Shown: positions 8,521-19,257 of the stretch, in pieces
How positions within the stretch are numbered: position 1 is the stretch's first letter
Layout of the letters: every line of letters begins with the position of its first letter
Assembly: GCA_030681235.1 (NCBI GenBank)
Contig: JAUXWY010000011.1
Span: 1-46,814, forward strand
DNA: 46,814 bases
Source: Pirellulaceae bacterium
Lineage (GTDB): Bacteria; Planctomycetota; Planctomycetia; Pirellulales; Pirellulaceae
Direction of reading: 5' to 3'
Made by a program: the position numbers and the translations under genes
Notes under the pieces: generated by a model
The model's input: the letters and a program-made list of their open reading frames with translations, nothing else
The model's database searches: none
Told to the model about the DNA's origin: nothing

Positions 8521-9912
8521 TCACCGCAGCGGAATGCCGTTCAGGCGAAACGGAACCTCGGTTTCGATCAAGATTCCCGGACTCCGATAGATCAACTGAA
8601 GACCATCCAGGTCCTCGAACCGATCAAATATATAGACAAGCGCCAGGCCCTGATCGCGTCTGCCGCCCGACTCGATTGTCAGGTAGCCGTGCGTTTGCCC
8701 ATCACGATCGCGAATTTCAATTTGGTTTTGATAGATCCAGCCGAAATGAGATTCCAAGCTTTGCTTGGCATCGGAGAATTGAATTCCTAGCTTGAGCAAC
8801 ATCAGATGCTCGTCGTAGCTCACCTCTTCCAATTGCACCTTGATGCCGGACTTTTCAATGAGTTGCTTTTTTTCGAGTGCCGTTTTCAAGTTCTCAAAGC
8901 GAAACGTCTCCTCGCGGCCTGCCACCAACAGATTGAACTTGCCCTGTAGATCAACGGTTTTCGTCTCCCAAGCATCCAAATTGGGCCAAGCGAAGTTAGC
9001 CCGGGCCCCGGATCGTTCGTTGGTCACACCAAATCCCACTTTTTCACCCTCGGCGCCGACCGCTTGTTTGATGGTGGGGTCAGATGGGTTGAGAATTTCG
9101 ACGCCGTCCAATGGCAAATCCAACCGAATCACTCGTAACTTTGGCTCCCATTCCAATTGCAACGAAAACTGCAACTGTGCCGGCAGGGAGCTGGTCAAAT
9201 CCCGAGCGTATTGCAAACGAGTCGGACTGACTCGAAACGCACCATGGTAACTGGCCCAAGTGCGTCGCGAGGCTCGCTCAACGGCAGGAGTCAAAATAAC
9301 GCCCCGGGTTCGATCGTTGTCAAAAGTCAATTCCAATCGATCCATGACCTCGTCCATTGCTGCCCAGTAGGAAACGCCTTCCCAGTCCACGCTGAGACGC
9401 TTCTGATCCGGAATAGCCGCCAGGGTCACGTTGTTGGTTTGTTGGCGAACGCTCTCCAATAACTGGGGCAGATCAAATTCGCCCTTGAGGTTCAACGACA
9501 TGGGTTTGGTGACTTCTTCGGCGGTCATTATCTCCAGTGCGATTCGGACACGCTTCAGTCGCTCTTTCAGCTCGGCGGATTGGCCTTCGAGCTCGGGCGG
9601 TAAGTAATCCAGCACTTTGGTTCCGATGGCCAATAAGTCGCGCTCGGCTTGATCTCGCTGCGCCAGTTCATCGGCATTCAGTTGCCGCAACAACAGGCGG
9701 ACACGGCGTTGCAGTTCGGGATCAATCGTGGCTGGTGGTTCGCCTTCCTCGGGCTCCTGGAGGCACGCGGCAACAACCAAGTTGTTCGAAGTCAATTCAG
9801 CAACCCAACCAACGCCCGCAATCGAACTCAACAGCCAAGCGGCACCGCTCGTTAGCGGTGCGTTATGGGCGAGTCTCTTCATCCAATTGTTGATAGTTTG
9901 AACTGCGGCCAT
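8521..9912 (-). CDS. Secreted protein with HEAT-like and STN-like regions
   Basis: Function unknown; exported. After a long N-terminal region with a hydrophobic stretch (about 20-50), residues 63-125 look like the HEAT-like segment common in planctomycetes (DELAQRDQAERDLLAIGTKVL). Residues 137-200 resemble an STN (secretin/TonB short N-terminal) fold: SLNLKGEFDLPQLLESVRQQT followed by KRLSVDWEGVSYWAAMDEVMDRLELTF. The remaining 260 residues are beta-rich without a known motif. The ATG at 9912 has AGGAG spaced 7 nt upstream, a strong ribosome binding site. It is the first gene of a probable operon with the parvulin, which may help fold it or its partners. Confidence 0.7.
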   Translation of the reverse strand: MAAVQTINNWMKRLAHNAPLTSGAAWLLSSIAGVGWVAELTSNNLVVAACLQEPEEGEPPATIDPELQRRVRLLLRQLNADELAQRDQAERDLLAIGTKVLDYLPPELEGQSAELKERLKRVRIALEIMTAEEVTKPMSLNLKGEFDLPQLLESVRQQTNNVTLAAIPDQKRLSVDWEGVSYWAAMDEVMDRLELTFDNDRTRGVILTPAVERASRRTWASYHGAFRVSPTRLQYARDLTSSLPAQLQFSLQLEWEPKLRVIRLDLPLDGVEILNPSDPTIKQAVGAEGEKVGFGVTNERSGARANFAWPNLDAWETKTVDLQGKFNLLVAGREETFRFENLKTALEKKQLIEKSGIKVQLEEVSYDEHLMLLKLGIQFSDAKQSLESHFGWIYQNQIEIRDRDGQTHGYLTIESGGRRDQGLALVYIFDRFEDLDGLQLIYRSPGILIETEVPFRLNGIPLR

Positions 9913-11562: not shown

Positions 11563-13086
11563 CTACCCAAGCGCCTGTTGGATCCGCTGGATCAGTCCTG
11601 TTGTCCCTTCACCAGCATGACGCATCTTGAACAGCGCCGCAGAAAAGTATCGATCGCGCCACGTTGCTCCAATATTGAAGTAATCTTCTAGCACTGCCGA
11701 ACTGTATTTATAGTCGTGCGAGTCGTCGCCCTTGAGAAAGATCAGCGCTCGAGCTTGTCGGATCAACGGGTAAATCGGATGGCCGTGTTGCAAATAGGCG
11801 TACGTTTGCTGTGCCGCCGCGGAAGCATCTCGACCTAGCTCGGAAAATATCTCCTGGGGCAAGTCCTGCGGGTTCGCTGGATTATCTCCCATAACCAACT
11901 GATCGACCGTCCGTTCGGCCAGAACGCCACGTTGACGAGCCTCGGACAAGAAGTGCGACAGGAACGCCGCATTTTGCAGCAAGACAAATGCCCGAGTAAG
12001 CGGATTGCGAACTTTGCGAAAGATGTAATTCATGGCATTGGTTGTTGTCACCGCATGTAACGGAACGATTCCCGGCTGTCGCATCGTTAGCTCGCTGGCG
12101 AACACGAACATCGCATTATAAATCGACGCGGTTGCCGCGCCGCGTTGCAATTGCCGAAAGACGAGGTCGCTGGCGTCCGTCGCTGTGCCTTGACGCAAAC
12201 ACTCGATCAATTCGACCGTTGCTCCTTCATCGGGAGAACCCGCCATCCAGTCGTCACGCAACTGTCGCGCCAATTGCCAATTGCCACGACCATCTCGGTC
12301 CGGCGCAAGATCGCTCGTCGCGGGATTCGGCTCGCCGACATGATTGAGCAGCGCGTAGCTAAGGCTGCGCAACACGGGTTCGGCATGGTGCCAACCAATG
12401 GTCTCGAGTGTGCGATACGAGTTGGCGAGATAAATCGCTTTATGTCCGATACTGCGGAAGTCTCGGGCAGCGTACTCCGCGAAGAGCTCGAAGATTTCGT
12501 CGGAAGTGTGGACTCGGGCCAATGCGGCCGTCGCGACATCGGCTCGTTCTTCGTCCCAGGCGTCCATCGCCGTTCGAAATTCGGTCAGGCAACCGTTCGG
12601 TGATGGCAGACGAGACTCGTCCACCGCTGCCATGGTCCAATTGCCTTCTTCCACATCGCGAGCCTGTGATCTCTTGAAGCTGTCGACAGCCCACAGCAAC
12701 GGCAGCCATTTCTCGGTCTCTGGCGCGTCGATGCTCGCCAAATGCGCGGAGTTCACGACGAGTACCGCGTGGAACTTGAACCCGACTGCTGGGCGCGGCT
12801 GAACGTTACGAATTCCCGCCAAGAAGAGTGCCGCCAAAAACTGTCGATAACCGATCCGGCCGCTGGCCACATGCTGGGCCATTACGCCGATAATTTGCTC
12901 GTGGGGCGTCTCTTCCAACACCCGAACCCAAGGTTCAATTTCATCGTTGAATCGTACGTCCTTGGTTCGCCACGCTTCGCGGCCGTCAAGAAAGTTGGCG
13001 GGTGATGGAAGCTTGGCCAACAAACCGGCCACCAAACTGCCCGAACTAATGCGGGTCAAGAATTCTCGTCGAGGAACGGTCAGCAT
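11563..13086 (-). CDS. Tat-signal protein of unknown function
   Basis: A 507-residue protein with a twin-arginine signal (VPRREFLTRISSGSLVAGLLA, residues 4-24), so it is probably exported folded. The mature part is almost all alpha-helical with no TM segments and no cofactor motif I recognise. Tat export suggests a folded or cofactor-bearing protein, but no CxxC, heme or molybdopterin motif is seen. It contains two His-rich turns (GWHHAEPVLRSLSYALLNH) and AVLVVNSAHLAS. It lies 110 bp downstream of the pseudo-HtrA gene on the same strand and may belong to that operon. I can name no function. Confidence 0.65.
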   Translation of the reverse strand: MLTVPRREFLTRISSGSLVAGLLAKLPSPANFLDGREAWRTKDVRFNDEIEPWVRVLEETPHEQIIGVMAQHVASGRIGYRQFLAALFLAGIRNVQPRPAVGFKFHAVLVVNSAHLASIDAPETEKWLPLLWAVDSFKRSQARDVEEGNWTMAAVDESRLPSPNGCLTEFRTAMDAWDEERADVATAALARVHTSDEIFELFAEYAARDFRSIGHKAIYLANSYRTLETIGWHHAEPVLRSLSYALLNHVGEPNPATSDLAPDRDGRGNWQLARQLRDDWMAGSPDEGATVELIECLRQGTATDASDLVFRQLQRGAATASIYNAMFVFASELTMRQPGIVPLHAVTTTNAMNYIFRKVRNPLTRAFVLLQNAAFLSHFLSEARQRGVLAERTVDQLVMGDNPANPQDLPQEIFSELGRDASAAAQQTYAYLQHGHPIYPLIRQARALIFLKGDDSHDYKYSSAVLEDYFNIGATWRDRYFSAALFKMRHAGEGTTGLIQRIQQALG

Positions 13087-13196: not shown

Positions 13197-14402
13197 TTAC
13201 TTGACAGCCGAAGGCCAGCCGGGGATTTCCAGTTGCCGCAGAACCTCAGCCAAGTGTTCGCCTGTAAGTGCATAACTCGCCGTGCGCCCGGCTCGAGCGA
13301 TGTTGACGCCCACGACATCGCCCGACAGGTTGACCAAGGGGCCGCCACACTGTTCGGGAAGCAACGGGGAATCGTGTTGCATGGCCCACGGAAAGGAACC
13401 GCTTCGCTGGCTGTTGATGCTGCCCAACAGGTTCATGGCTTCGTAGCGGGGCGCGTCAACCGACATGTTCCGCGAATTCCCCAACTTCACGGTAAAATCC
13501 AAGACCGAATCACCCCGCTTTGTTTTGACGATCAACTCGTCTCCGGCTCGATACTTGCGAATCAGGCTGACAAACTCGGGAACCTTTTTCACTTCGCGCC
13601 CTTGAATCGACATGATGACGTCGCCGTCGCGCAGCCCAGCTCGGTAGGCGGCATTCTGGACTCTATAAATCGCAATTCCGCCCGGCGCTTCTTCTGGGAC
13701 GACGCCAATTTGCCCACGATTGCGTTCGAGCAGACTGCGAGCTTCGCAACTGCAAACCCCCAACGTCATGATGGGCTCCCGCACACCAACCGAAAGCAGC
13801 AATTGTCCTGGTTGTGGCTCGGCCGCATGAAGATGAATGGGCTGGTAAGTCCCTTCTTCCAGTTTCAACAACGCGAGATCATTCTCCGTATCAATTTTGA
13901 CGATCGTTGCCGATACTGTCTTGTCGCGTCCGAATCGGGCTTTGAGGGGCTGATCTTGTTCCAATTCGCTGGCTTTGGTGATGGCGTATCCGTCACTGGT
14001 CAAGACCGTTCCAACCGAGACCCAATAAGTCGGGTTGATCACTTCAAACGTCGAGGCACGAACTCCGGAAACAATCGGATGCAGTTCGCGGAGCACGGAC
14101 GAATTCTCGCGTTCGTACGTGCCGATTCGGCGTTCGCGGATGGCATTCAACTCTTGTTGGCTTCGACGCCCGCGATTGTCCTGCAAGCGTTGCAAGATTT
14201 CCGGCGTGTCTTGTGCATCGTCAAGCGATGGCTCTGCCGCGGCCAACGCGGGTGATGTTGTTACAACATCCTGGGCCGTTGTGAACGATGGATTGGACCC
14301 ATCAAACGAAACGCACAGCCAGACGAAAATCGCCATCCACGCGCGTCCCCCGACTTGGCGGTTGGAACAAGCCGTGTCTCCAGCATTTGCGACCCACATC
14401 AT
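13197..14402 (-). CDS. Degenerate HtrA-like protein with a PDZ domain inserted in the protease fold
   Basis: An exported 401-residue protein (signal at about 20-36). Residues 100-220 match the first part of a trypsin-like HtrA domain: GTVLTSDGYAITKASEL, where Ser145 replaces the catalytic His, then DTENDLALLKL with Asp175 kept. A PDZ domain follows (about 222-310, YRAGLRDGDVIMSIQGREV). Only then comes the loop that should carry the nucleophile, LLPEQCGGPLVNLSGDVVGVN, with Cys352 in place of Ser. Normal HtrA has the PDZ after the whole protease domain. The protein is most likely an inactive binding partner. The start at 14402 is chosen for AAGGAG at 14412-14417; an ATG at 14444 is also in frame, 1 bp after the HtrA stop. 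Confidence 0.82.
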   Translation of the reverse strand: MMWVANAGDTACSNRQVGGRAWMAIFVWLCVSFDGSNPSFTTAQDVVTTSPALAAAEPSLDDAQDTPEILQRLQDNRGRRSQQELNAIRERRIGTYERENSSVLRELHPIVSGVRASTFEVINPTYWVSVGTVLTSDGYAITKASELEQDQPLKARFGRDKTVSATIVKIDTENDLALLKLEEGTYQPIHLHAAEPQPGQLLLSVGVREPIMTLGVCSCEARSLLERNRGQIGVVPEEAPGGIAIYRVQNAAYRAGLRDGDVIMSIQGREVKKVPEFVSLIRKYRAGDELIVKTKRGDSVLDFTVKLGNSRNMSVDAPRYEAMNLLGSINSQRSGSFPWAMQHDSPLLPEQCGGPLVNLSGDVVGVNIARAGRTASYALTGEHLAEVLRQLEIPGWPSAVK

Positions 14403-14411
14403 CTGTTGATT

Positions 14412-14417
14412 CTCCTT
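14412..14417 (-). promoter_or_regulatory. Ribosome binding site deciding the pseudo-HtrA start
   Basis: AAGGAG on the minus strand, 9 nt before the ATG at 14402. It lies inside the longer reading that begins at 14444 and favours the shorter protein. Confidence 0.55.
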
Positions 14418-14445
14418 CACCACACACCGATCCGTTTCCGCCATC

Positions 14446-15606
14446 TTACTTGGTTTCCAATTGCCCCAAGATGATCTGATACTCTATTCTCTCGGTTCCA
14501 CGTCGGACGACCACTTTAACAGAATCTCCCGCCCGTTTGCTGCCAATTTGTTCGACCAATGACTGGGGGGACGTGATGGCGATTCCATTAAAGGACTCGA
14601 CAATATCGCCAACTCGCAACCCGACTCGGGCGGCAGCCGAGTTCGGTTTGATAATCTTTAGGATCGGTTGCGTATCCTGCGAGTCCATTTCGACACCGAG
14701 GACCGCTGAGCCGACCGAAGGGCCCGTTGGAGCGGATTCCGGCTGCGGCCGGACTCGTGGCGGACGTCGAGCAGCACCCCCCTCTTCCGAATCCGGTGGC
14801 CGAGTTCCCGGCAAATGGCCCCAGGACTCGCCGCTCTTCAAACGATCCCAGTCGCGCAGAAACGACTGGATCGAGACATGGCGATTCTCGGCAATCGATT
14901 CACCAATCGAGGAATGGATGCCGACGACCTGCCCCTCCAACGTAAAGAGCGGTCCCCCCGAATCACCTCCGATGATTGGGCAATCGCTGGTCACGGCTTC
15001 CCGCTCCATTTGAATGATTCGACCGATGCGCACCGGCGGCCGCCGCCCCAAATCGTGCCCCCCCGAATGGCCCAAAGCCACAACCCATTCGCCTCGTCGC
15101 AAACGACTCGCGTCGCCCAATTCGACATGAGGCCAAGGTCCCGCTTCTTTTATTTGCAACATCCCCGCATCCTGATTCAAGTTCTTGCCGAGCGGTTTGG
15201 CCGTTGCCGTTCGACCGTTGGGTAGAAGGATCGTGAACTCGGTGGCCCGCGAGATTATCACGTGGCCAGCCGTCAGAACCAGACCGTCGGGACTCACAAT
15301 CACGCCGCTGCCGAAGCTTTCCCCGTCGGTGATGGCCACGACGGCATCCGTGACATCTTCTACCACTTGTTGCACCGCCGCCTCGCGTTTCCGCCATTCG
15401 TCCAATGAACCAGTTGAACCCGTGGTCAGCGAGGTCGAGGCCTTCGACTGGGCGTCAACCTTGGCAACAACTGAGAGACTGGCTCCCGCCAAGATCAACC
15501 AAACCGCGAATCGAAGCACGCACCCCAGTCGAAACAGCCAAACGGCACGGCTACTGGACCGAACTGTGGCGGAGATGGAGGAGGCTTCAACATCAGACGA
15601 TAACAT
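14446..15606 (-). CDS. HtrA/DegP-like serine protease with one PDZ domain
   Basis: An envelope serine protease of the S1C family, 386 residues. An N-terminal signal or anchor (about 21-48) precedes the protease domain (about 80-250). The triad is intact: His115 (LVLTAGHV), Asp146 (NQDAGMLQI) and Ser216 (GGDSGGPLF). A Pro/Arg-rich linker (268-295) leads to a C-terminal PDZ (about 298-383, ARVGLRVGDIVESFNG). The start at 15606 is fixed by GGAAGGA (15613-15619) 6 nt upstream; an upstream ATG at 15669 has no such site. The next gene, a pseudo-HtrA, begins right after its stop, so the two are almost certainly co-translated. It probably degrades or binds misfolded exported proteins. Confidence 0.9.
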   Translation of the reverse strand: MLSSDVEASSISATVRSSSRAVWLFRLGCVLRFAVWLILAGASLSVVAKVDAQSKASTSLTTGSTGSLDEWRKREAAVQQVVEDVTDAVVAITDGESFGSGVIVSPDGLVLTAGHVIISRATEFTILLPNGRTATAKPLGKNLNQDAGMLQIKEAGPWPHVELGDASRLRRGEWVVALGHSGGHDLGRRPPVRIGRIIQMEREAVTSDCPIIGGDSGGPLFTLEGQVVGIHSSIGESIAENRHVSIQSFLRDWDRLKSGESWGHLPGTRPPDSEEGGAARRPPRVRPQPESAPTGPSVGSAVLGVEMDSQDTQPILKIIKPNSAAARVGLRVGDIVESFNGIAITSPQSLVEQIGSKRAGDSVKVVVRRGTERIEYQIILGQLETK

Positions 15607-15895: not shown

Positions 15896-16918
15896 CTAAG
15901 CGGCCGAGCGGACGGACTTGCGGCGGTTGGCGTGTCGTTGCGATTCATTTTGCGGGCCAAGCGGATGTGAATGGTGCTCGTTTTCACCGCTCGTGACGTC
16001 CGAGCTCGGGAGTGGAAGCGTTCCGGCGTTCCGGCGGCGAACCAAACTCAAGCTGGTCAGTCGCTCCCAAGCAACTCGCCAAAGCTTCGGGGACAGACAA
16101 CCACGAGCCGCCTCGGACAATCCTGCTCGAACGGCAGTCCAGTAGACGGAACGCCGCGAAGTTGCGGTCGCCAACCCGATAATTCGATTCGACGAACGGC
16201 CACAAGGCCGATAACCCGCCTCAATTTCCGCCGCTATGACTTCGTTGGCCAACAAATCGCCGGCGACCCATTCATGCGACCAGCCGTTTTGTTGGACAAA
16301 AAGTCCCAGCGAAACCTCCACGTAGCCGCTCGGCAGACGTGGTCCGTCGGTGGATGCCCACTGTGCGAGGAGCCGCCGTTGCACCAAGCCTGCCCAGAGA
16401 GTCGGGCCAACGGCATTCAACTGCGGGGACAGGTCCGCCGCCGACCATTCCTCCCCGATCAACTCTTCCAGGCATACCGGATGGAAGCGATCCGTGAGTA
16501 CGACGCTGCTAGCAAGACAGCAACCAGCAGGATTTTCTGGTGCCGAATTCGACACGTCGGTGCTTGCGGTTCGAGCCGCAACGCGCGGGCTGGCCATGCC
16601 TAAGTCACGCTGCTGGACCGACTTCAACGCACCCTCTAAGGCGTCCTGCGTCATTTCGATACCGGGAGCCAACCAATAGATCCAAGTTGACGTAGCGGCG
16701 CCGGCAGCTAAAGCCGCTCTGCTCAGTACAGTGGTGGAGCGACAATCGACGAAAACCGAGCTGATTTCGTCCAGAATACCGTATTGATCCTGGTAGTCGC
16801 CGGCGATGGCAGCCAGGACTTCGACCTGAGATCCAGCGTACCGCAAGACACTGGCCAGCGTCATTTCGAACGCGTCCACTTGATCCATCAAGGGAACGAT
16901 GATTGTCAATCGAGGCAT
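15896..16918 (-). CDS. Glycosyltransferase family 2-like protein, probably degenerate
   Basis: A 340-residue soluble protein that starts like a GT-A glycosyltransferase: LTIIVPLMDQVDAFEMTLASVLRY matches the family 2 opening. The region that should carry the metal-binding DxD reads TWIYWLAPGIEMTQDALEGAL, with A-P-G where DxD is expected, so nucleotide-sugar transfer by the usual mechanism is doubtful. The second half is not recognisable, and the C-terminus is basic and His-rich (HHSHPLGPQNESQRHANRRK). AAGG spaced 8 nt supports the ATG at 16918. It is isolated, with no other glycan gene next to it. Confidence 0.6.
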   Translation of the reverse strand: MPRLTIIVPLMDQVDAFEMTLASVLRYAGSQVEVLAAIAGDYQDQYGILDEISSVFVDCRSTTVLSRAALAAGAATSTWIYWLAPGIEMTQDALEGALKSVQQRDLGMASPRVAARTASTDVSNSAPENPAGCCLASSVVLTDRFHPVCLEELIGEEWSAADLSPQLNAVGPTLWAGLVQRRLLAQWASTDGPRLPSGYVEVSLGLFVQQNGWSHEWVAGDLLANEVIAAEIEAGYRPCGRSSNRIIGLATATSRRSVYWTAVRAGLSEAARGCLSPKLWRVAWERLTSLSLVRRRNAGTLPLPSSDVTSGENEHHSHPLGPQNESQRHANRRKSVRSAA

Positions 16919-17436: not shown

Positions 17437-19257
17437 TTACTTCAACCGTTTGATGATGTGCCAGCCGTATGGGCTGTAGGTCGAGTGGTATTCGGTCATG
17501 CCAATCTGGCCCGGCTCCAACGAGAAACTGACATCGCCAAAAGCACGGACCATTCCCGCGCGGGGATAAACTTGTTCCGTCTCTTCCCGTGGGGTCGTCG
17601 GACTTGGAGTTTCCGCATTAGAGCCAGGAGAGACCACAAGATTCGACATGGCATAGATACCCGGCGACTGATCGTTCGTGAACTCCTGAACAAGCATCGC
17701 AAAATCCTCGCCATCGCGGGCGCGCTCCAGAAGTTTTTGGGCCAGTTCCTGAGACTGTTCCTTGGTACGAGAAATTTCTTTTCCGGGAACAGAACCTTGG
17801 AAGCCCACCAAGATGTGTTGGACCGTCATGAGCTCGGGCCCGACAAACCGCGAACCGTGTGGAATCATCTGCTGCGTACCGGGCTCAAAATCGAGTACTG
17901 CTGACGCGACTTGCACGTCACTGAGTTGATTCTCGCTCTCCGGAAAGTGCATGAACCCTATCGCGACACGACCTTGCAAGGCATCAATTCCGATGTAATC
18001 TCCAAAGAAGACTTCTGATCGGCAATCGAACTCGGGAGTATCCACGGGGAAGTACGAGAATTCTTGGCCGTCCAAACTTCGGGCGAGCGTCAACCGAGTG
18101 CGAGTGCCTGCGGTGGCAGCTCGGTCGTAGTAGACGATGTTTACTGATCCATCCGCCGGGTCCACGGCCAACCAAGTGAAGAACTGATCGCGTCCGTTGT
18201 CGGTTGACGAATCATTGACTTGTCGAGGCGCCGTCCAAGTGGAGCCGCCGTCGGTCGACGAAATCAAGAACACATCTTTATCGCCGTTGCGTTCGTCGAT
18301 CCAGTTCACGTAGATCGTCCCGCGCGAAGGCCCGCGCGAGGCATCCACGATCGTGACCGGCATGCCGTTGTGTCGTGAGATTCCTTCAACGTTCGAAGCC
18401 CAACCGCCGGGCGTTTCGCACAGGACCCGGTCCGTACCAAACGTGATGCCCCCATCGGCCGATTTATCAAACTCCAAGCCTCGCGGCCCGCCCCAGACAA
18501 CGTAGACCGAGCCGTCCGGTCCCACGGCGGGCACCGCACCCTCCAAAGTCCCATCATCATCCACACAATCGCCCGGCGTGTCGGAGATGCGAATCGGCGG
18601 TGCAAACGTTTTGCCGCCGTCCGAGCTGCGCGAAAACATGATATGCGACTTGTCCGCAGAGTCGTCGCTGCCGTAAACATCGAACCGAGTCCAGGACGCA
18701 TACAGGTTGCCAACGTGCGGCGAACGGCGATGGCGATCGAAGACCAACCACGGCTTGTCCTCGAAAGGAGTTTTGGTGTTGAGATGGTCGACGATCATCG
18801 TTCGATCGCTCCAGGTCACGCCGCCGTCGTCACTGGTCGTGAGTCCAATGCCGTTCGCCGCAACGGTCGGGCGGTCCTCCCAGAGGCCCTGAAAGGAAAT
18901 GAATGCGTGGACACATTGCCCATTGGCATTGAACAACACCACATCGTCGCCCTGCGTGCGTTGGTCGACGTTGGGCACCGCCGCCGGGGTCCAAGTCTTG
19001 CCACCATCGTGCGAGACATAGGTCATGTTCGAACCCGAGAGTCCGTCACCGCGAACCAGGCTACCCGCAATCATGTTGTTCACATTGACGGGGTTGATCG
19101 CGATCGAGATCTCGGCCGAAGTTTTCACTTCAGGAGGAGCGATCCGCGTCACGGCTTGTTGGGCCGCCACGACGTTCACGACAACGCTGCTCCAACGCAA
19201 GGCTCCGAAGCAAGGCAACAAAACGCTGCGAAGAAACGGAGCAAGCGGATTGGTCAT
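17437..19257 (-). CDS. Exported BNR/sialidase-like beta-propeller fused to a parvulin rotamase
   Basis: A 606-residue exported protein (N-terminal hydrophobic stretch about 7-35). Residues about 45-470 form a beta-propeller of the BNR/sialidase superfamily with at least five Asp-box motifs: SHDGGKTW, TSDDGGVTW, SSDGGKTF, SADGGITF and SSTDGGSTW. No sialidase Arg triad can be assigned. From residue 479 to the end a parvulin domain follows: VQHILVGF, then ELAQKLLERARDGEDFAMLV, SFSLEPGQIGM and SPYGWHIIKRL. It carries an insert of about 30 polar residues in its middle. I know of no standard family with this pairing. The start overlaps the stop of the upstream membrane protein gene (ATGA), so the two are translationally coupled. 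Confidence 0.82.
   Translation of the reverse strand: MTNPLAPFLRSVLLPCFGALRWSSVVVNVVAAQQAVTRIAPPEVKTSAEISIAINPVNVNNMIAGSLVRGDGLSGSNMTYVSHDGGKTWTPAAVPNVDQRTQGDDVVLFNANGQCVHAFISFQGLWEDRPTVAANGIGLTTSDDGGVTWSDRTMIVDHLNTKTPFEDKPWLVFDRHRRSPHVGNLYASWTRFDVYGSDDSADKSHIMFSRSSDGGKTFAPPIRISDTPGDCVDDDGTLEGAVPAVGPDGSVYVVWGGPRGLEFDKSADGGITFGTDRVLCETPGGWASNVEGISRHNGMPVTIVDASRGPSRGTIYVNWIDERNGDKDVFLISSTDGGSTWTAPRQVNDSSTDNGRDQFFTWLAVDPADGSVNIVYYDRAATAGTRTRLTLARSLDGQEFSYFPVDTPEFDCRSEVFFGDYIGIDALQGRVAIGFMHFPESENQLSDVQVASAVLDFEPGTQQMIPHGSRFVGPELMTVQHILVGFQGSVPGKEISRTKEQSQELAQKLLERARDGEDFAMLVQEFTNDQSPGIYAMSNLVVSPGSNAETPSPTTPREETEQVYPRAGMVRAFGDVSFSLEPGQIGMTEYHSTYSPYGWHIIKRLK

Follow-up and report, generated by a model that had tools for sequence, protein, structure and literature searches.

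HtrA proteases serve as textbook examples of allostery among identical subunits, and it is therefore hard to tell the sensing subunit from the responding one. According to the portion of PMC5666011 available, the PDZ signal of DegS is relayed through loop L3, and in simulations of HtrA1 the L3 arginine touches loop LD of the next monomer; a PDZ-L3-LD network is also described for Deg1 in the accessible part of PMC3640471. MamO with MamE is the closest functional precedent for the locus reported here: in the excerpted text of PMC4794232, the presence of MamO, and not its triad, is required for MamE-dependent proteolysis. An in-silico study, as excerpted, treats an HtrA-like protein of Vibrio whose triad is atypical (PMC3575494). 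PDZ proteins have been surveyed across microbes, with many copies noted in planctomycetes and, in the portion available, no description of such an insertion (PMC6411480). A pseudoprotease paired with an active relative is thus of a known kind; the domain arrangement itself, that of a PDZ-split pseudo-HtrA family, was not found described in the open-licence papers searched.

The window analyzed here, the whole stretch of 46,814 nucleotides of a Pirellulaceae contig (JAUXWY010000011.1), carries such a gene on its reverse strand (Table 1). The open reading frame (ORF) spans 13197-14444 in full and was called from the ATG at 14402, giving a protein of 401 amino acids; starting instead from the ATG at 14444, further upstream, would lengthen it to 415 amino acids, and the ATG at 14402 is favoured because it fits the start of the orthologue L001. 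Pfam matched Trypsin_2 in two stretches of the protein (best at residues 131-207) and PDZ_2 at residues 230-307, and at E≤1 it returned trypsin, PDZ, one weak match to an S41 N-terminal domain and nothing else. Three NCBIfam HtrA models matched in three stretches apiece, all far under their cut-offs (74.5 bits against TIGR02037, the Do family, with a cut-off of 416.2), and the protein stayed below the cut-off of every NCBIfam model. The flanking ORFs at 11563-13086, 15896-16918 and 8521-9912 (all on the reverse strand) had no Pfam match at E≤0.01. At 17437-19257, also on the reverse strand, a 606-amino-acid ORF joins sialidase-like BNR/Asp-box repeats to a PpiC-type rotamase domain at its C-terminus, an odd fusion.

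Table 1. Features of the pseudo-HtrA gene and of its partner gene (positions in the window; residue numbers of the 401-amino-acid protein).
Feature	Coordinates	Strand	Basis
Pseudo-HtrA gene	13197..14402	-	ORF; Pfam Trypsin_2 and PDZ_2; start equivalent in L001
Likely signal peptide / hydrophobic N-terminus, residues 1-43	14274..14402	-	Hydrophobic stretch in 94/103 unfused members; cleavage site by our own reading
N-part of protease fold, residues 104-222, ending GVCSCEAR with Arg222	13737..14093	-	Profile alignment, E 5e-22
Lys143-Ala144-Ser145, Ser at the His57 site	13968..13976	-	Column counts, 153 homologues
Asp175 (Asp102 site), kept	13878..13880	-	Asp 152/153, one gap
PDZ inserted in loop L3, residues 230-307	13482..13715	-	PF13180, E 4.3e-12
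C-part of protease fold, residues 331-391, QHD.....CGGP and NIARAGR	13230..13412	-	C-half alone E 8.9e-16; column counts
His343, nine residues ahead of the nucleophile site	13374..13376	-	His 136/151
Cys352 at the Ser195 site	13347..13349	-	Cys 134/151
HtrA-like partner gene, directly upstream	14446..15606	-	Trypsin_2 E 7.1e-24 and PDZ_2; partner clade 67/67
Partner catalytic His	15262..15264	-	Alignment; His-Asp-Ser in 143/146 partners
Partner catalytic Asp	15169..15171	-	Alignment
Partner catalytic Ser (GGDSGGP)	14959..14961	-	Alignment
Partner GHSGG...RIG, loop LD if the RxGR strand is the canonical strand	15022..15072	-	16 residues in 143/146
Partner C-terminal PDZ	14470..14703	-	PF13180, E 2.3e-12

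A reading made from the sequence only, without searches, had described this protein as the N-terminal half of a protease, a PDZ domain and then the nucleophile loop EQCGGPL, with Ser145, Asp175 and Cys352 at the triad sites. The loop and the three residues are as claimed, and the order of parts agrees with the profile alignments to canonical HtrAs and to a solved structure. As controls we used 30 canonical HtrAs, each from a different related genome; the genome of the focal gene was among these 30. In hhalign, both halves without the PDZ domain aligned with these controls at a probability of 99.9 (E 3.4e-34, 179 columns), each half also matched the canonical profile singly (N-half, E 5e-22; C-half, E 8.9e-16), and a profile retaining the PDZ domain likewise covered both halves (E 1.9e-28). 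In the one alignment that we read of the best solved structure, the DegP-like 22kg, the structure met profile positions 54-154, 267-321 and then 154-260. This is the usual order of N-half, C-half and PDZ, and the focal order is therefore rearranged. AlphaFold2 run on the focal protein with four close sequences gave a pLDDT of 38, too low to bear on the barrel. At the level of sequence profiles, the focal protein has a trypsin fold of the HtrA type into which a PDZ domain is set.

Homologues were collected from planctomycete genomes. In the first search, all 60 relatives matched at E≤0.001, many of the matches being merely PDZ-length. At the class level, 198 of 198 genomes matched at E≤1e-10, with strong full-length matches (about 1e-40 and better) in part of the 198 and essentially weak matches alone in one family (f21); at the phylum level, 31 of 199 genomes matched at E≤1e-25. 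The resulting set contained 153 full-length homologues in two cohorts, whose counts are phylogenetically non-independent. Cohort 1 held 69 of 72 pseudo-HtrA places (G032:C9 and G047:C113 were omitted and G055:C65 was moved to cohort 2), and cohort 2 held 84 places that were hand-picked to thin close relatives. The genome of the focal gene also encodes a further, diverged pair of this type (L061, at G000:C283), which lies beyond the window. A mobile origin was considered and rejected: plasmids and phages gave no match by tblastn at 1e-5, and none was confirmed in viral contigs.

The interruption recurred throughout the family. Among the 152 members that were classed, the insert held one PDZ domain in 146, two in 3 and four in 1, and in the remaining 2 it measured 115 and 127 residues and PDZ was not detected; the gap between the halves was at least 102 residues in all 152. 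No PDZ domain was detected after the C-half in any of them. Both cohorts were found with a PDZ-containing query or profile, by which uninterrupted relatives could be missed; within that scope, no uninterrupted barrel was seen among the 152, nor any homologue with the full triad in the normal order, which the sequence-only reading had named as evidence against itself. The arrangement is therefore common, and dead HtrAs without the insert may still exist. Given its recurrence at the same place in the family, the PDZ insertion is not a chance event. Two PDZ domains lie at this split-barrel place in L213, L214 and L216 and four in L215, and all four chains are fused to an active domain.

The loss of His and Ser from the triad, also claimed beforehand, extended to every homologue in which the sites were read (152 for His, 151 for Ser). 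The His site held Ser in 146, Thr in 4 and Asp in 2 (one gap), and the Ser site held Cys in 134, Val in 6, Met in 5, Ile in 3, Gln in 2 and Leu in 1 of the 151 read; Asp was kept at its own site in 152 of 153, the exception being a gap. Three further positions were largely constant: Lys143 was near-invariant (151/153), Arg333 was kept in 128 of 151, and position 343 was His in 136 of 151 homologues and Thr in all 30 canonical controls. A tree of 164 sequences placed the pseudo-HtrAs (67), the partners described below (67) and the canonical controls (30) in one group each, with local support of 0.995, 1.0 and 0.738, respectively.

The gene directly upstream had been taken for an active HtrA, and 14446-15606 indeed encodes His-Asp-Ser and a C-terminal PDZ domain; its ORF extends to 15669, with an ATG at 15606. 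When the intact domain was taken for chains with two active-type domains, 143 of 146 partners had the His-Asp-Ser triad. The exceptions were L037, a split domain hit in which His and Asp can be read from the sequence itself, L194, with Glu for Asp, and L198, whose Ser failed to align. In 103 of 153 cases the pseudo-HtrA gene immediately followed a partner gene in the same orientation, and in 43 it was fused behind the partner, leaving 7 orphans (51, 16 and 2 in cohort 1; 52, 27 and 5 in cohort 2). The gap between separate genes had a median of 51 nt and was at most 200 nt in 102 of 103 pairs; there were 18 overlaps, some of them perhaps due to over-long ORF starts. Parsimony counted 11 changes between the fused and separate states on a rough, unsupported tree of 152 sequences, compared with a mean of 37.6 and a minimum of 29 after labels were shuffled on that tree; fusion or fission therefore recurred.

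The association also held when it was approached from the partner. Under a cut of E≤2.1e-33, which we set just above the other HtrA-like matches, 69 partner-type matches were found in 60 genomes; the lower edge of this count is soft because the matches from the next one (1.1e-32) onward include canonical HtrAs. For 68 of the 69, a pseudo-HtrA lay no more than 3 kb away; the remaining match was in the genome of the orphan L082. By genome (n = 60, cut-offs set by us), 47 had both genes, 13 had neither and none had one only (Fisher p 2e-13, relatedness ignored). If the partner matches at E 2.5e-37 and 2.1e-33, the weakest two, are left out, genome G058 turns discordant. Families f3 and f5 each included one genome with both genes and one with neither, in f5 by way of G058. 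We found no third operon member: apart from antisense ORFs over the partner, which recurred in 62 and 14 loci, no other protein family came near this frequency within 5.5 kb. An ORF that we read from its sequence as metallo-hydrolase-like occurred in 23 loci, mostly on the opposite strand.

A hydrophobic N-terminal stretch was present in 96 of 103 partners, 94 of 103 unfused pseudo-HtrAs and 34 of 43 fused chains, compared with 5 of 103 partners and 13 of 103 pseudo-HtrAs in mid-protein control windows. These N-termini fit export of both proteins. In 19 of 43 fused chains no PDZ domain was detected behind the active domain, compared with 2 of 103 separate partners, so that the inserted PDZ is the sole one detected in those chains. 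Three chains (L094, L096 and L196) carry three protease domains in a single polypeptide, one degenerate, one with an intact triad and one split by a PDZ domain, a layout that a drawing of a covalent trimer would show; they sit in one clade of nine fused chains and so may have one origin. PDZ insertion, triad loss and the link to an intact-triad HtrA all recur across the 153 homologues, the check that the earlier reading had proposed; the fusions and the L3 position of the insert are additions to that reading. As judged from gene order, fusion and co-occurrence, these data demonstrate a genetic bond of the pseudo-HtrA with one intact-triad HtrA family, and the pseudo-HtrA and the HtrA-like protease very probably act as partners.

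We then compared the signalling loops of the two proteins. In the canonical controls, an Arg lies seven residues past the strand Gly (30/30) and a Gln lies at -10 of the nucleophile (30/30). The profile alignment set GVCSCEAR of the focal protein on the canonical Gly-to-Arg stretch without a gap, and in the column of Arg222, 121 of the 131 rows without a gap had Arg (a further 22 were gapped). By our own mapping through literature numbering, the stretch would be loop L3 and Arg222 would correspond to DegP Arg187; the PDZ domain starts just past this residue. The Gln at -10 (Gln342) was present in 119 of 151 pseudo-HtrAs and in 29 of 146 partners. Loop LD of the pseudo-HtrA was short, with 9 residues in 133 of 153 versus 12 in 30 of 30 controls. 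DegP Thr176, the third member of the cluster known from the literature, was by our reading not evidently conserved in the pseudo-HtrA.

In the partner, the Gly-to-Ser stretch was mostly 37 residues long (114/146) versus 41-46 in the 30 controls, whatever the placing of the loops within it. If RxGR is taken as the canonical strand, a motif placing, LD has 16 residues (143/146) and the L3 stretch has 21 (114/146). MAFFT gave an LD of 12 residues in 127 of 129 partners, the profile-profile alignment of partners with controls (E 4.8e-38) gave a third placing of the LD stretch. Of 129 partners, 84 were matched by the motif pattern used on the controls. An invariant Arg-x-Gly-Arg lies close by in the partners, so an L3 Arg may still be present in them. 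These comparisons demonstrate an altered signalling region in the predicted partner. A complementary division of loops, with L3 in one protein and LD in the other, would follow from the motif placing; it was withdrawn as a firm result because the partner side, unlike the clear pseudo-HtrA side, depends on the alignment.

A regulator, adaptor or substrate-presenting subunit would be the best reading of the role of the pseudo-HtrA. More specifically, at a little under even confidence, we propose that the focal gene encodes a subunit that senses without cutting, in an exported HtrA system of two parts, and that this subunit trans-activates its partner. The two proteins would assemble into a mixed oligomer, the simplest being a trimer like that of other HtrAs, and the inserted PDZ domain would bind the C-terminal ends of substrate or stress peptides. 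Because this domain sits in L3, peptide binding would move L3 directly in our proposal; the L3 Arg would then order the LD loop and the oxyanion hole of the adjoining active subunit, and sensing and cutting would be divided between subunits. The specific L3-to-LD relay is a tentative suggestion, at best about as plausible as the sensing role. Still more tentatively, the HtrA sensor and catalytic centre may have been split over two proteins, a dead subunit with a PDZ-wired L3 switching its partner via LD. The identical-subunit relay of DegS and HtrA1 would in this way have become a dedicated hetero-subunit interface, sometimes frozen in one chain of two or three protease domains. Several observations count against the proposal. 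Seven of 153 homologues have no adjacent partner, and separate partners keep a PDZ domain of their own (101/103) and so may sense for themselves. The near-invariant Lys143, His343 and Cys352 are also unexplained by a pure signalling role.

After the relay we rank four other readings in the order in which they are taken here. The pseudo-HtrA could be an adaptor or holdase: it would bind the partner and use its PDZ domain and barrel surface to present or hold substrates, without any L3-to-LD allostery. It would have the same genetic bond to the partner, and the members with two PDZ copies (3 of 152) or four (1 of 152) would suit substrate avidity; however, the position of the insert, exactly in L3 after the retained Arg, is left unexplained, and we regard this reading as unlikely. 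An inhibitory subunit, a dead protein that locks the partner off and frees it once the PDZ domain binds a signal, would recall DegS, whose PDZ domain is described as an inhibitory lock in the part of PMC5666011 available, and a stoichiometric dead copy shutting off a protease would also keep the two genes linked. The fusion to an active domain in 43 of 153 cases would nevertheless require release without dissociation, and the present data give no sign of the direction of regulation; this reading appears improbable.

Lys143, Asp175, His343 and Cys352 might instead form a new active or metal-binding centre, and they are well retained (Lys in 151/153, Asp in 152/153, His343 in 136/151 and Cys in 134/151). 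The excerpted report on MamO, itself a pseudo-HtrA, describes metal binding (PMC4794232). Against such a repurposed site, 17 of 151 homologues have Val, Met, Ile, Gln or Leu instead of Cys, and 15 of 151 have Thr, Tyr or Ile at position 343, so neither residue is indispensable, and we consider the reading quite improbable. The same 17 of 151 replacements disfavour a catalytic Cys centre. We also rejected a disulfide between Cys352 and the partner Cys seven residues before the Ser: no pairing was seen in separate pairs, in which the pseudo-HtrA has its Cys also where the partner has Ala, Ser, Val, Gly, Asn or Thr (the search pattern reads fused chains wrongly and overlooked the Cys site of 17 out of 153). 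Finally, a structural scaffold unrelated to proteolysis would have a parallel in PflC of the Campylobacter flagellar motor, a triad-less HtrA relative serving as a lattice in the available part of PMC12222027. With 146 of 153 members linked or fused to an HtrA-like partner, this reading is very improbable indeed.

The family adds to the pseudoproteases a group from many planctomycete genera with a PDZ domain within a trypsin-type barrel. A natural pair of a triad-lost and a triad-kept protein would let the PDZ-L3-LD relay be probed one direction at a time.

A PDZ domain inside the protease unit, as in the pseudo-HtrA, is also found in S41 C-terminal processing proteases and RseP-type site-2 proteases; these differ from the pseudo-HtrA in being active and in having unrelated folds. 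The focal pair resembles MamO and MamE, as excerpted, in that a triad-lost HtrA relative works with an active HtrA, the partner at our locus being an intact-triad protease by sequence. Unlike the focal protein, MamO has a TauE-like transporter domain and keeps His and Asp with Thr for Ser, and the accessible text does not mention a PDZ insertion (PMC4794232); the NCBIfam MamO model scored 30 bits on the focal protein against a cut-off of 800. PflC of Campylobacter jejuni is likewise an HtrA relative without the triad, but its order is protease-PDZ-PDZ and its role in the flagellar motor is structural (available part of PMC12222027). Arabidopsis Deg5 and Deg8 are, in the portion of PMC3640471 available, two HtrAs of unequal PDZ content (none in Deg5) with synergy on D1. 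There, activity of Deg5 has so far been undetected; both proteins keep the catalytic-triad residues, in contrast to our pair, and an inserted PDZ domain is not described in that portion. With DegP, DegS, DegQ and HtrA1, the pseudo-HtrA shares a trypsin-like fold by profile, loops LD and L3 and a PDZ domain of the bacterial type, and the L3 Arg and the Gln at -10 of canonical HtrAs are largely kept. The canonical proteins have their triad and carry the PDZ domain after the protease, whereas in the pseudo-HtrA the triad is lost and the PDZ domain lies in L3.
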